64,000 nucleotides of DNA, taken from contig JFMR01000108.1 in assembly GCA_000635015.1 (NCBI GenBank), positions 1 through 64,000 of the forward strand. Reading direction: 5' to 3'. Below the pieces are notes generated by a model, which had not been told where the DNA came from, ran no database searches, and saw only the letters and a list, made by a program, of their open reading frames with translations. Shown in pieces: positions 4,457 to 36,282 of this stretch. Every line of letters begins with the position of its first letter. The first letter of the stretch is position 1. Both the position numbers and the translations under genes were made by a program. This DNA is from Prochlorococcus sp. scB243_498I20 (GTDB taxonomy: Bacteria; Cyanobacteriota; Cyanobacteriia; PCC-6307; Cyanobiaceae).

Positions 4457-5860
4457 ATGATAGATAATCATTCAAGTAAAAGAAATATTAATCTTGTAAT
4501 TGGATTAGGTAAATCTGGATTTTGGGCTGCAAAGTATTTGAGAAGCATCAATAAGAGAGTAATTGTTTGGGAAAGTAAAGATGGGATAGAATTCTTAGAA
4601 AGAAAAACAGCATTAGAAAAGCTTAATATCATAGTTTCTCTAAATAAAGAATTTGTATTTGAAGAAATTCAACCTTTTTTGAAAGAGATCGAATCTGTTG
4701 TTGTTAGTCCATCAATACCTTATGACCATGTAACTATTAATGAATTAAAAAAAAAGGGAATTAAAGTAATTGGAGAAATTAATGTTGCATGGGAAATTTT
4801 AAAAGACACAAATTGGATAGGTATTACTGGCACTAATGGCAAGACTACTGTTACTCATCTACTAAGCCATATACTCTGTGATACTGGATTATATGCTCCT
4901 TTTGCTGGAAATATTGGTACACCTTTATGTAAGTATGCTCACTCCAAAAAATGTGAAAAAATTGATTGGGTTGTAGCTGAATTAAGCAGTTATCAAATAG
5001 AAATATCTCCAGAAGTAAAACCTAATATTGGAATATGGACAACCTTCACAGAAGATCATCTTGAAAGACATAAAACACTTGAAAACTATTTCAACATAAA
5101 AAAAAGCTTGTTAGAAAAATCTGATTTTAGAATTTATAATTATGACGATAAAAACCTAAGAAATCACTACAGTTCGCTATCAAGAGGGGTTTGGATAACA
5201 ACTAGTTTCGATAAGTCAAATTTTATGTATTGCGATTATTGGATAGATGAACAAGCGTACATTGTTGAGAAAGGGAAGAAATTATTCAAAATTGAACATT
5301 TTTCTTTAAAAGGAATGCATAATCTTCAAAATCTTTTATTGGTAATTGCAGCAGCAAGAAAAGTTGGATTATCTGGCAAGAAGATTAAAGATTCTTTATC
5401 TAATTACAAACAATTACCCCATAGGATGGAAACAATTTATAAAAATAATAATCTGGAAATCATTAATGATAGTAAAGCTACAAATTTTGACTCATCTATT
5501 GCGGGAATAAGTTCAATTGAAGGTCAAATAATAATCATTGCTGGGGGTAGATTAAAAGGTAATGAATATAGTGAGTGGATAAAAGTTTTAAAGAAAAAAG
5601 TTAAATGTGTTTTCCTTTTTGGAGAAAGCTCAAAAGTCCTAAAAATGGCGCTTATTAATGAAGGATTTAAAAAAAATATTTTTGAATTTTCAGAACTAAA
5701 AGAGCTTTTAAATTTTGTTTTTCATTATTTACAAAATAATAGAGTAGGAACATTATTATTCTCACCTTCATGCTCTAGTTTTGATCAATTTAAAAATTAT
5801 GAAGAGCGTGGAGATTATTTCAAGAAACTAATAAGTGAAAAATTAAAGGTTAATAAATGA
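4457..5860 (+). CDS. murD: UDP-N-acetylmuramoylalanine--D-glutamate ligase
   Basis: This Mur ligase adds D-glutamate to UDP-MurNAc-L-Ala in the cytoplasm during peptidoglycan synthesis. The product (467 residues from this start) shows the N-terminal Rossmann motif [12 protein letters not shown], the ATP loop [15 protein letters not shown], and the Mur-type [11 protein letters not shown] segment near the C-terminal third. An in-frame ATG 48 bases upstream (4409) would add 16 hydrophobic, Asn/Ile-rich residues before the Rossmann strand; the shorter form fits MurD better and is chosen. It is transcribed alone. Confidence 0.93.
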
Positions 5861-21246: not shown

Positions 21247-21354
21247 ATGACTCCAGAAGCAGAACGTTTTAATGGTTGGGCAGCAATGTTAGGTTTCGTT
21301 GCAGCAGTTGGCGCCTATGTCACCACAGGTCAGATTATTCCAGGCTGGTTTTAA
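21247..21354 (+). CDS. hli: high-light-inducible protein, minimal (35 aa)
   Basis: A 35-residue protein consisting almost only of the chlorophyll-binding helix of the Hli/LHC family: AERFNGWAAMLGFVAAVGAY, then TTGQIIPGW. The ER.NG..A..GF pattern provides the chlorophyll-ligating Glu and Asn. Hli proteins protect the photosynthetic membrane under excess light. The stop overlaps the ATG of the next hli by one base (TAATG), so both are translated together. Confidence 0.93.
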   Translation: MTPEAERFNGWAAMLGFVAAVGAYVTTGQIIPGWF

Positions 21355-21494
21355 TGAAAAATAACGAGCCAAAAATAGTTGAAAAAGAAAAAATCATTGC
21401 TGAAAAACTTAACGGAAGATTCGCAATGATAGGTTTCATAGCTCTAGTTGGAGCATATTTAACTACAGGTCAAATCATTCCTGGTTTTATCTAA
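21354..21494 (+). CDS. hli: high-light-inducible protein (46 aa)
   Basis: 46 residues: a charged N-terminus (KNNEPKIVEKEKIIA), then the Hli helix EKLNGRFAMIGFIALVGAY and TTGQIIPGF. Key residues E and N of the chlorophyll-binding motif are present. It is coupled to the preceding hli through a one-base stop/start overlap, and the pair is closed by a strong terminator 19 bases later. Confidence 0.94.
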   Translation: MKNNEPKIVEKEKIIAEKLNGRFAMIGFIALVGAYLTTGQIIPGFI

Positions 21495-22148: not shown

Positions 22149-22355
22149 TTAAAAAATTCCCGGAATGATCTGACCTGTTGTTACATAAGCACCTATTAGT
22201 GCAATGAATCCAACCATAGCCCATCTTCCATTAACTTTTTCTGCATTTTGAGGGTATCCATCGTAAGAAACAGTTTCATCAATATAAGGCCTAGTTTCTG
22301 ATGGGAACATATTCTGTCTGCCACCTGACTCTGTAGTAACTCCTGATTTTGTCAT
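22149..22355 (-). CDS. hli: high-light-inducible protein (68 aa)
   Basis: 68 residues. A 40-residue hydrophilic N-terminus (Gly/Ser/Thr-rich, with SYDGYPQNAE) precedes the Hli helix EKVNGRWAMVGFIALIGAYV, followed by TTGQIIPGIF. The Glu/Asn/Arg ligands of the chlorophyll-binding motif are intact. It is transcribed away from the other two hli genes and ends with the same TTGQIIPG block, indicating recent common origin. Confidence 0.94.
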   Translation of the reverse strand: MTKSGVTTESGGRQNMFPSETRPYIDETVSYDGYPQNAEKVNGRWAMVGFIALIGAYVTTGQIIPGIF

Positions 22356-22599
22356 TAAAAAGAAAATAATTGTTAACTAAAGTAACACAAATATTAACTT
22401 ATGTAAACCAAAAGCCTCCAATGATTCGCTTCTGAGTACTTAAAGGCCGAAATGTGACAAATTTGTTTAAAAATTTTTAAAGCGCACAAAAATTCTCATT
22501 AAAACAACTCATAATTATCAAATTTGCATATAATTCATGATGAATAAGCATTTATACTCACAGTAAGTAATTTTACTTAGTAAAGTATTATTAGCATTT

Positions 22600-22690
22600 A
22601 GGAAGTGCTTAGCTGGTTAAAGTCAGAAAATCTGAATTAACTAAGTCGTCATGAGCTTGCCGTTGGGATACTGCAAGCTCTTTCAATTTT
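22600..22690 (+). ncRNA. candidate small RNA ending in a rho-independent terminator
   Basis: Two adjacent structures on the + strand: an imperfect hairpin at about 22608-22645 (CTTA/TAAG, GTTAA/TTAAC and TCAG/CTGA segments around an AAAAT loop), then a perfect terminator stem GAGCTTGC (22653-22660) / GCAAGCTC (22673-22680) followed by TTTCAATTTT. No gene ends nearby on this strand, so the terminator most likely closes a short non-coding RNA. No named RNA is recognised. Confidence 0.6.
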
Positions 22691-30934: not shown

Positions 30935-31035
30935 ATGCAGCTCCTGAACTTGCTCAAGTCCCCGTCCTATGGCTTGAGTCGTACTGCGGTCTATCAGTTG
31001 GTAGATCGGACGATTTTGTAGTATTCACTACAATC
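30935..31035. ncRNA. candidate structured RNA with tRNA-D-arm-like hairpin
   Basis: A locally GC-richer island in a 636-base gene-free gap (30438-31072). Three hairpins in a row: CTCAAG (30953-30958) with CTTGAG (30973-30978); GGTCTA (30988-30993) with TAGATC (31002-31007), whose loop reads TCAGTTGG as in tRNA D arms; and TTGTAGT/ACTACAA (31016-31033). It cannot fold as a whole tRNA. The strand is unclear. The rest of the gap shows only an 18-codon frame on the minus strand (30584-30640) that is too short to claim. Confidence 0.42.
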
Positions 31036-31072
31036 TACTTATACAGTATTTATACTTAGATGTCAACAATTA

Positions 31073-31216
31073 TTAGAAACTAAACTTCAATTTAAAAGTA
31101 GATTTGGATCTCATAAACTCCCGAACAAGAATACAGAACATATAACTACGAGTAACTCCCATAAAAACTGAAACAAATGCTAGAACCACACAAATAGGGC
31201 AATGTGGGAATCCCAT
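31073..31216 (-). CDS. small membrane protein with HCPIC motif (47 aa)
   Basis: The ATG shares one base with the stop of the upstream gene at 31216-31413. The product starts MGFPHCPICVVLAFVSVFMG: a C-x2-C pair at the head of a membrane helix, then a basic tail (VREFMRSKSTFKLKF). The CPxC at a helix end could be redox-active or metal-binding; not proven. The two genes likely form a coupled pair. Confidence 0.52.
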   Translation of the reverse strand: MGFPHCPICVVLAFVSVFMGVTRSYMFCILVREFMRSKSTFKLKFSF

Positions 31217-31413
31217 TATTTATTTTCCAATATAAATTTTAATTCAGCCTCTGCATTATAAATATCAATTCTTCTCTTAAGTAGTTTAAAAAATTTATTT
31301 ATTTTTTTCAAAATTAAACCTTCTTTAGGCATCAATAATAATATTATTATTAGAATGAATATATCAATGAGCAAAAATACTGAATCCATTGATATAACTA
31401 ATGTTTGTAACAA
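31216..31413 (-). CDS. small membrane protein (65 aa)
   Basis: A strongly hydrophobic N-terminal helix (about 9-28, SMDSVFLLIDIFILIIILLL) is followed by a basic amphipathic C-terminal half (KKINKFFKLLKRRIDIY). The stop overlaps the start of the HCPIC mini-protein by one base. Not recognised. Confidence 0.52.
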   Translation of the reverse strand: MLQTLVISMDSVFLLIDIFILIIILLLMPKEGLILKKINKFFKLLKRRIDIYNAEAELKFILENK

Positions 31414-31550
31414 AATTATACAATAAACAACACCGACATTTGCTCAGATACTCTTGATCAACCAACAAATAAAGGCTTATTCAAAATTAAATATAATAAT
31501 TGGAGATCTAGTTACCTTGCAGTGCTTTTTCCCTTTTGCTAAAAAAATAT

Positions 31551-31744
31551 AGCGGGCTTAAGTCCAATAAATAGTCCACGAGGATTTAGTCCGCTACCTA
31601 AAGCCTGAGATTACAAATTTATCCTAATTAATATGCCACTATGCTTTACAAGGCAAATATCTTGATTGCGCAATAAATTTATTTTGTAGATTGCTATTAC
31701 AAAAATGATAAGTTTATTTAAATTAGTTACTAAATCCTCGTGGA
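31551..31744 (+). promoter_or_regulatory. hairpin and 16-nt inverted repeat covering a GTG start
   Basis: AGCGGGCTTAAGTCC (31551-31565) can pair imperfectly with GGATTTAGTCCGCT (31582-31595). The stretch TCCACGAGGATTTAGT (31575-31590) is the exact reverse complement of ACTAAATCCTCGTGGA (31729-31744), which holds the GTG start codon (31740) of the next small gene. If both lie on one transcript, the start would be buried in a 16-bp helix. It may also be an antisense target. Confidence 0.5.
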
Positions 31745-31859
31745 GAAAGCTTTAGTAAATTTCTTTTACTGGTTACTGATAAGATCAGCTGAATCTCATT
31801 ATGGAGAATCATTTGTATCTGTAGAAGTTCCATCTAATTCAATCAAAAGTTTTTCTTGA
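31740..31859 (+). CDS. SAESxYG mini-protein, copy 1 (39 aa)
   Basis: GTG start; the upstream frame is closed by a stop 9 bases earlier, so no other start exists. The product MEKALVNFFYWLLIRSAESH continues with YGESFVSVEVPSN. The protein at 36175-36282 has the same plan: MEK, then NF.YW, then SAES, YG and an acidic residue plus Ser, ending in V-E/T-V-P. This conservation across a diverged pair is strong evidence that both are real. Function unknown; the N-terminal part may be a short amphipathic helix. Confidence 0.68.
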   Translation: MEKALVNFFYWLLIRSAESHYGESFVSVEVPSNSIKSFS

Positions 31860-32004
31860 TTTCTGAAAGTTTTTAATACTTAAATTCATAGCTTTCTGAA
31901 AAATGAATAACTAATTTGAATTAAGTTGGTTAATTATCTCTATTGCAAATAAAGATAATGTTGTTAATCTTGCACTTAAAGAAGAAACTTAATTTCTTAA
32001 ACTG

Positions 32005-32214
32005 ATGCAATTTGATCATTTAAATTTCAATGAAGATGATGGCCTCATGTCCATAGAAGATTTAAGGGCTTTACGTCTTCGAAAAAAGAAAATTGAAAGT
32101 GATAAGAAAGCTAGAAAGTATATCCTGGATATAAATCAAAGATATAGAAAAATGAGTACCCGCAAAAGTAATAACTTTTTAAGAAATATGAACCCTTTTA
32201 AAAAGGCCGCATAA
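32005..32214 (+). CDS. hypothetical basic protein (69 aa)
   Basis: An acidic start (FNEDDGLMSIEDLRALRLRK) leads into a long basic helix (KKKIESDKKARKYIL) and an end with FLRNMNPFKKAA. It may bind nucleic acid or the ribosome, but no family is recognised. A terminator-like hairpin follows at 32301-32329. Confidence 0.6.
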   Translation: MQFDHLNFNEDDGLMSIEDLRALRLRKKKIESDKKARKYILDINQRYRKMSTRKSNNFLRNMNPFKKAA

Positions 32215-32300
32215 ATTATTAATCTTGATTTTGTTAATTTGTTTAACTTTGCAACTTTCGGAGTAAGATTTTAATGGTGTTTCTTTGGAAGAGTTTCACC

Positions 32301-32329
32301 AAGAGGGGTCGATTTTTGGCCCCTTCTTT
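32301..32329. terminator. terminator-like hairpin
   Basis: AAGAGGGGTC and GGCCCCTTCTT pair around a GATTTTT loop, a GC-rich stem followed by TTCTTT on the + strand. It can end transcription from the 69-residue gene 87 bases upstream. A minus-strand frame running through it (32271-32465) is likely spurious. Confidence 0.65.
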
Positions 32330-32539
32330 GCGGAGATATTTTGTAATTGAAACTCGTTGTAAAATTAAAGTAATACTTTCCTAGAAGGCAAAAGTGATGT
32401 AAATCTTTTGTTAAAAGTTTTTTATTACCACTTAATGAAAACTTTATATCTTCAACTAAATCCACTAATTAAAAAAACAAAAGTTTAAGCTTATGGACCA
32501 TTTCCCATAATTTATTGAATTTTTTCATTTGCGTTTTTA

Positions 32540-36174: not shown

Positions 36175-36282
36175 ATGGAAAAATCATTTCTAAATTTTAT
36201 TTATTGGATCCTATTAAAGTCAGCTGAAAGTTACTACGGAGATTCATTAAAAACAGAAGTACCATATACACCTTATTTTTAG
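36175..36282 (+). CDS. SAESxYG mini-protein, copy 2 (35 aa)
   Basis: ATG start. MEKSFLNFIYWILLKSAESY continues YGDSLKTEVPYTPYF. Matches the protein at 31740-31859 at MEK, L.NF.YW..L, K/R-SAES, YG(E/D)S and EVP. The YGDS/YGES turn and SAES block are the most conserved. Nothing known is recognised. Confidence 0.68.
   Translation: MEKSFLNFIYWILLKSAESYYGDSLKTEVPYTPYF

Follow-up and report, generated by a model that had tools for sequence, protein, structure and literature searches.

The window, a 64,000-nt stretch of DNA from a genome of the same genus as Prochlorococcus MED4, contains the genes of two paralogous mini-proteins, SAES-1 (31740–31859, forward strand; 39 aa, GTG start) and SAES-2 (36175–36282, forward strand; 35 aa), which lie 4.3 kb apart. 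Upstream of SAES-1, the 16 nucleotides at 31575–31590, TCCACGAGGATTTAGT, are the exact reverse complement of 31729–31744, as the original prediction had reported, and the downstream arm does include the GTG of the 39-aa open reading frame at 31740. Also in agreement with that prediction, SAES-2 has no 16-nt partner and no leader of this kind; no second exact inverted pair of 16 nt within 200 nt exists in the window. When the window was shuffled with its dinucleotides preserved, 2 of 30 shuffles contained such a pair. Judged from its sequence alone, the repeat is only mildly unusual and is weak evidence; its weight comes from genus-wide conservation.

SAES-1 was compared across 66 aligned loci, after 9 of 75 leader places had been dropped. 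The start codon is GTG in 62 loci, ATG in three and TTG in one, and 200 of 376 codon changes (53%) are synonymous, versus 22% for random single changes. Mean variation is 0.029 over the 11 bases before the start codon and 0.118 over the preceding 29 bases (gaps excluded). The low leader variation, the exchange of start codons and the synonymous excess together argue that the open reading frame is a real gene with a constrained leader. We found no suppression of third-position variation in codons 2–6 (0.127 versus 0.135). Type I toxins are small proteins, below about 60 aa and usually hydrophobic; the 39-aa SAES-1 is only moderately so, with a mean Kyte-Doolittle value of 0.53 in its best 18-residue window; searches of Pfam, NCBIfam and PHROGs matched neither SAES-1 nor SAES-2, and a PDB search with SAES-1 gave no match. 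Among 300 genomes of the family, SAES was found in one of 59 genera.

In MED4, to which we assigned genome G033 because Yfr20 lies at its published position (1336435–1336523), SAES-1 and SAES-2 are tandem neighbours at 775504–775796 (locus L249, 9505–9797, reverse strand), some 1.7 kb away from clustered hli-like frames that were called by eye and by mutual BLAST. The window has Yfr20 at 22592–22679 on the forward strand (RF02367, 85.2 bits) and hli-like frames at 21.3–22.3 kb, namely 21256–21488 (forward) and 22152–22268 (reverse). An hli-like frame occurs in just 6 of the 80 loci, each about 3 kb long and centred on SAES, so the neighbourhood of SAES is a loose one. Near the SAES-1 locus, at 30953–31015 on the reverse strand, lies a glutamine-II (Downstream-peptide) riboswitch (RF01704, 57.7 bits).

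The upstream arm of the repeat belongs to a conserved unit of about 80 nt, in which a promoter-like stretch is followed by a hairpin that begins at the predicted +1 (31551). A search with 31540–31760 identified a second, unlinked place in the window's own genome with 21 identical bases. Full tallies over 266 genomes of the genus gave 218 with the 16-mer at one mismatch or fewer and 216 with a SAES protein, counting either paralogue. Collection by motif yielded at least 191 places from 246 loci, of which 178 were kept as units and 43 representatives were aligned; the 13 dropped from 191 comprised eight SAES leaders on the other strand, four chance matches and one broken copy. A covariance model built from the motif-collected set then found 100 units, spread over 47 of 50 genomes (the window's own, at 94.7% completeness, and 49 others with 97% or more); one of 101 matches was dropped as the reverse-strand reading of another. 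Since every unit type was initially gathered by means of the pairing-site motif, conservation of the 3′ arm partly reflects how the motif-collected set was built. Under stricter filters, the unit was found in none of the 58 other genera of the family (151 genomes).

We named four types of unit by their flanks. Type a, to which the window copy belongs, is for the most part found some 155 nt upstream of SAES-1, and type b is unlinked; types c and d occupy other places, type d partly beside SAES-1. The pairing site is intact in 33 of 40 b copies, in 25 of 47 linked a copies and in 6 of 13 c and d copies, and 39 of the 40 b copies have at most one change in it. A chance match, or a decaying duplicate without function, could draw on the 2 of 30 shuffles that held such a pair and on the many damaged linked copies, but it is already contradicted by unlinked sites that stay nearly unchanged across the genus, and we regard it as extremely improbable. 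Five type d units (L194, L181, L183, L186 and L209) have the promoter and hairpin seen elsewhere and no SAES leader within 400 nt; the L194 unit ends at 4818 and an hli-like frame starts at 4967, leaving 148 nt between hairpin and frame; some units may therefore stand at the 5′ end of other messages.

The predicted promoter of the small RNA in the linked (type a) copy of the window spans 31517–31545 on the forward strand, with a −35 element TTGCAG (31517–31522), a 17-nt spacer and an extended −10 element TTGC-TAAAAA (hexamer 31540–31545). The pattern TTGnnn-N17-TAnnnn precedes 77 of the 100 units, compared to 9.4% in mononucleotide shuffles of those upstream stretches. In the 43-copy alignment (A1), the −35 element varies among TTGCAG, TTGCCA and TTGTAT, the spacer is 17 nt in most copies, the extended −10 element is TATAAT in a few, and the hairpin starts about five bases later. 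A generic sigma-70 scan of 31000–32400 did not have this site among its predictions.

The imperfect hairpin at 31551–31595 claimed by the original prediction exists, with a predicted +1 near 31551, and folds on the forward strand at −17.4 kcal/mol (z −4.27; none of 200 shuffles as good). Covariance model R2, which replaced R1 and its only 8 pairs, matches 31504–31603 with 89.9 bits, and the aligned sequence of the 43 representatives reads (A)GCGGRCTAARGTYY...CTCCACGAGGATTTAGTCCGCT. The upstream arm of the repeat had been placed in the loop region; it does cover the loop end, but also takes in most of the 3′ stem arm. The pairing site itself (31574–31590, forward strand) has the consensus CTCCACGAGGATTTAGT; the copy in the window carries G at 31574, leaving 16 of 17 positions paired. 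Conservation drops at the 3′ foot of the hairpin in types c and d, while type b is conserved beyond it because the entire b neighbourhood is conserved. No conserved terminator was seen 3′ of the hairpin among the aligned units.

Changes within the hairpin bear on which strand is the RNA. Read on the forward strand, the 48 distinct stems of the 100 units contain 516 Watson-Crick pairs, 89 G·U, 18 A·C and 42 other combinations; the paired share is 91.0% on this strand versus 80.3% on the reverse strand, where the 89 G·U pairs become mismatches. Counted as distinct kinds per position, G·U against A·C is 12 versus 7, a modest contrast. The earlier motif-collected set of 49 stems gave 556 Watson-Crick, 80 G·U, 15 A·C and 35 other. 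The hairpin of the window has z −1.26 on the reverse strand, with 22 of 200 shuffles as good, compared to the forward value of −4.27; the unlinked copy shows a smaller contrast (z −3.27 forward, −2.22 reverse). Neither the two-sided changes of stem pairs (2 pairs, reached by 220 of 500 shuffles) nor the within-stem covariation score (reached by 179 of 500) exceeded shuffled controls. With two-sided changes rare and not above shuffles, support for the fold comes from wobble pairs and not from full covariation. Because the changes mostly keep pairs on the forward strand (G·U over A·C), this strand is probably the RNA, and the wobble asymmetry together with the forward-strand promoter pattern points to a predicted RNA start near 31551 on that strand.

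Two alternatives bear directly on these observations. The reverse strand might be the functional one, as a terminator or as a small RNA from 31600 to 31541 that would carry the SAES-1 start sequence and act as a decoy titrating its binder. On the reverse strand a T run does follow type a copies, and that strand also folds (z −1.77 for 31540–31600, and the value given above for the unlinked copy), but the frequent changes would leave A·C mismatches there, b copies have an A run in place of the T run, and the promoter pattern is on the forward strand; we consider this quite unlikely. The second alternative is an element acting at the DNA level, a protein-bound operator or repeat at the promoter start whose match to SAES-1 is a by-product of inverted duplication. 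We rate this as very unlikely: the dyad sits right on the predicted start and both arms are possible protein half-sites, but the wobble-type strand asymmetry, the conserved loop and the association of intact sites with SAES-1 described next would be unexpected for an operator.

Across the 50 genomes, the SAES-1 leader is present in 41 and the unit in all 41 of these, versus 6 of the 9 others (p 0.004); none of the three unit-less genomes has the leader. Of the 41 leader-bearing genomes, 38 have an intact 17-nt site, versus 1 of the 9 others (Fisher p 2.6e-6). The association is also seen for unlinked copies alone (36 of 41 versus 1 of 9, p 1.9e-5) and among genomes having an unlinked copy (36 of 40 versus 1 of 6, p 5.1e-4), although these Fisher p values are too small by an unspecified amount because the genomes are related. 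A type I toxin gene should never occur without its antitoxin, and here the unit accompanies the leader in 41 of 41 genomes, yet three of them (G006, G017 and G117) lack a fully intact site; the one exception in the other direction, G037, has an intact site and no leader. Genome G089 was scored without the leader since its leader is too changed for detection, even though a broken SAES-1 with a stop in the frame is present, and both of its sites are damaged.

The original prediction had offered two explanations of the repeat, a leader acting in cis and a small RNA. The second is supported by the promoter-like stretch directly 5′ of the hairpin, by wobble pairs that fit the forward strand, by unlinked copies with an identical site, and by a site that is damaged or missing in 8 of the 9 genomes without the target leader; the first is weak as a main function. 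On the cis-leader view, the SAES-1 mRNA would begin with the hairpin, whose 3′ arm would pair with the start region 138 nt downstream in that molecule. Consistent with this, both arms lie on one strand with a spacing near 155 nt in most linked pairs, and the fold of 31540–31760 that had been suggested as a check gave a minimum-energy structure (−46.6 kcal/mol, z −3.04; 1 of 200 shuffles as good) that contains the long-range 16-bp helix. Between the arms, however, lies a conserved promoter-like block (31662–31700, forward strand; TTGATT ... TAGATT/TATATT, TTGCTATTAC), a candidate SAES-1 promoter with a putative start. In the 66 aligned loci, most columns of this block are at least 90% identical and some only 50–80%, and the stretch just 5′ of it has mostly 50–80% identical columns; the generic scan of 31000–32400 gave no promoter call here.

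A cis leader should also keep its two arms as a pair, but full complementarity across the 17 nt was seen in only 18 of 46 linked pairs (one of 47 was left out for a gap in the site). Among the 28 imperfect pairs, a matching two-sided change was found in only four, at one site each and with 3 to 6 mismatches left. This is the lack of covariation between the arms that the original prediction had named as speaking against it, for the pair in cis; the comparison says little on a pair in trans, because the site is nearly invariant in unlinked b copies. Furthermore, the 400 nt downstream of the 79 collected b copies contained no SAES leader in any case, and SAES-1 of MED4 is about 5.4 kb from its better unit. 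We therefore hold a cis leader to be unlikely. The frequent damage to linked copies, set against the intact state of unlinked ones, favours action of the predicted small RNA in trans, which we rate as its main mode, with the linked copy as an additional source.

The translation-start region of SAES-1 (31729–31756, forward strand), ACTAAATCCTCGTGGAGAAAGCTTTAGT, includes the target site at 31729–31745 and can form a weak hairpin, ACTAAA...TTTAGT (−6.7 kcal/mol, z −1.60; 20 of 200 shuffles as good), that nearly mirrors the inner hairpin of the small RNA. Seventeen nucleotides of the hairpin loop and 3′ arm of the small RNA (16 for the linked copy of the window) complement the SAES-1 start, ACTAAATCCTCGTGGAG; as expected of a type I pair, a separate, predicted RNA is complementary to the putative toxin mRNA, here over the start codon. 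The duplex of the unlinked-copy RNA with the SAES-1 start was computed at −43.0 kcal/mol, lower than any of 1000 shuffles (lowest −34.8, mean −19.4), and the same RNA with SAES-2 gave −22.3 kcal/mol. For the window copy, taken from 31553, the values were −33.0 with SAES-1 and −28.8 with SAES-2, so energy alone tells the two targets apart only for the unlinked copy.

In the window's own genome, matches at 17 of 17 positions occur only at SAES-1 and at the unlinked small RNA gene itself; allowing up to three mismatches, there were 11 matches versus 9 for the reversed pattern. Among the matches listed, ACTAAATCCTGGTGGA, one mismatch from the target site, is found in many genomes (e.g. G000:C36:114627-114642). 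It may be a second target or simply conserved coding sequence; we treated it as the latter, because a related site in locus L020 appears inside a coding frame, which we take, by eye, to resemble glutamine amidotransferase.

We read the repeat as the pairing site of a small RNA and not as a leader hairpin, with putative antisense control of the SAES-1 start, and give this reading a probability of roughly two in three. It draws on the computed repeated unit with its promoter-like stretch and hairpin, on the strand preference, on the complementarity and on the co-occurrence of an intact site with SAES-1. The RNA probably keeps the mini-protein switched off, like an antidote RNA acting on a toxin; repression is the expected sign of the effect because the duplex would cover the start codon. 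From these comparisons of sequence we infer expression of the RNA, its pairing in the cell, its repressive effect and the following order of steps. The upstream arm would be part of a small RNA gene on the forward strand with its own promoter, and the first 41–45 nt of the transcript would fold as a hairpin whose loop and 3′ arm, CUCCACGAGGAUUUAGU, could pair at every base with the translation start of SAES-1 mRNA, ACUAAAUCCUCGUGGAG. Since the SAES-1 start can fold as a weak near-mirror hairpin, the first contact could be between the two loops (CUCCACGA with UCGUGGAG), growing from there into a duplex over the start codon that would block initiation, with RNA decay as a possible consequence. 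The unlinked copy with its identical site would act in trans, and the copy beside SAES-1, often decaying, would be a second source.

A broader proposal, which we put forward tentatively and think rather doubtful, is a type I toxin-antitoxin-like system native to the MED4-type genus, in which the mini-protein gene, lying in a variable hli/Yfr20 region, would be guarded by a family of hairpin RNAs; the linked copy would be gained and lost along with the gene, and the unlinked chromosomal copy would preserve the antidote where the linked one decays. On this proposal the antidote may have arisen from its own target, as the small RNA gene resembles an inverted duplicate of the mRNA start. If free SAES-1 does harm the cell, this would be a guarded toxin in very abundant ocean phototrophs. 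The genomes also provide a natural experiment, as most of those without the target have lost or damaged the site.

A phage origin of the unit was considered and rejected. Fifteen IMG/VR contigs hold the 16-mer, three of them within 4 mismatches of the 22-nt element pattern and all three without its 5′ arm, and we judged all 15 to be chance matches by an estimate from the size of the collection; in annotated phages there was no match for 31500–31600 and only matches at E 3–6 for the SAES-1 protein. No Rfam family matches the unit, a permissive threshold having given only matches far below the families' cut-offs, and titles and abstract openings in the literature held no description of a small RNA/SAES-1 pair. 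The two MED4 units (within complement 770245–770340, with a predicted start near complement 770293 and the hairpin reaching down to 770253, and the weaker one within complement 1350532–1350631) are absent from the RNA lists of the 2005 and 2008 surveys as excerpted (Table 2 of PMC1242208, Table 1 of PMC2518516). They may yet be among the MED4 RNAs described later, which include Yfr22–27.

Short RNAs are already described from Prochlorococcus, a genus mostly without Hfq, including Yfr1, Yfr28 and the multi-copy family Yfr2–5. The unit has no Rfam match to set it beside Yfr1, Yfr2–5 or other small RNAs of the genus, and Yfr28 is set apart by its described location between ftsQ and ftsZ. Hfq was reported absent in 10 of 12 strains examined in 2008 (PMC2518516), and with few protein regulators and so many strains lacking Hfq, how Prochlorococcus small RNAs find their targets is an open question, for which the unit provides a testable pair, its site long and exact and a single target standing out as best. 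Closest in genus are Yfr6/Yfr14 and Yfr8/Yfr9 of MED4, proposed as toxin-antitoxin candidates (PMC2518516); each is described as a small open reading frame with an antisense RNA, but those pairs overlap on opposite strands. The 5′ UTR of Yfr6 is described as the Downstream-peptide (glutamine-II) motif (PMC2864571). We rejected SAES-1 as Yfr6 on the ground of that leader: within the window RF01704 is found only at the riboswitch described above, and it gave no match up to E 5 in 31400–31900.

Among known type I pairs, msoT1/msoA1 of Microcystis, proposed by its authors as the first in cyanobacteria (PMC12390103), also joins a cyanobacterial small protein with an antisense RNA, in another organism and likened here by its description. 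The nearest parallel in arrangement is zorO/OrzO, an unconventional type I locus of Escherichia coli that is named alongside TisAB-IstR and ShoB-OhsC (PMC3919570). As described there, a separate nearby small RNA has 18–21 nt of complementarity, of which 15 continuous nucleotides suffice for OrzO (PMC3919570), compared to 16–17 nt here, and the protein is very small in both cases. Unlike zorO/OrzO, the linked small RNA at SAES-1 would be in tandem and not divergent, its pairing would cover the start codon, and the second, unlinked copy is the better preserved one. We do not claim membership, but in its predicted way of working the small RNA/SAES-1 pair resembles unconventional type I loci of the zorO/OrzO kind.
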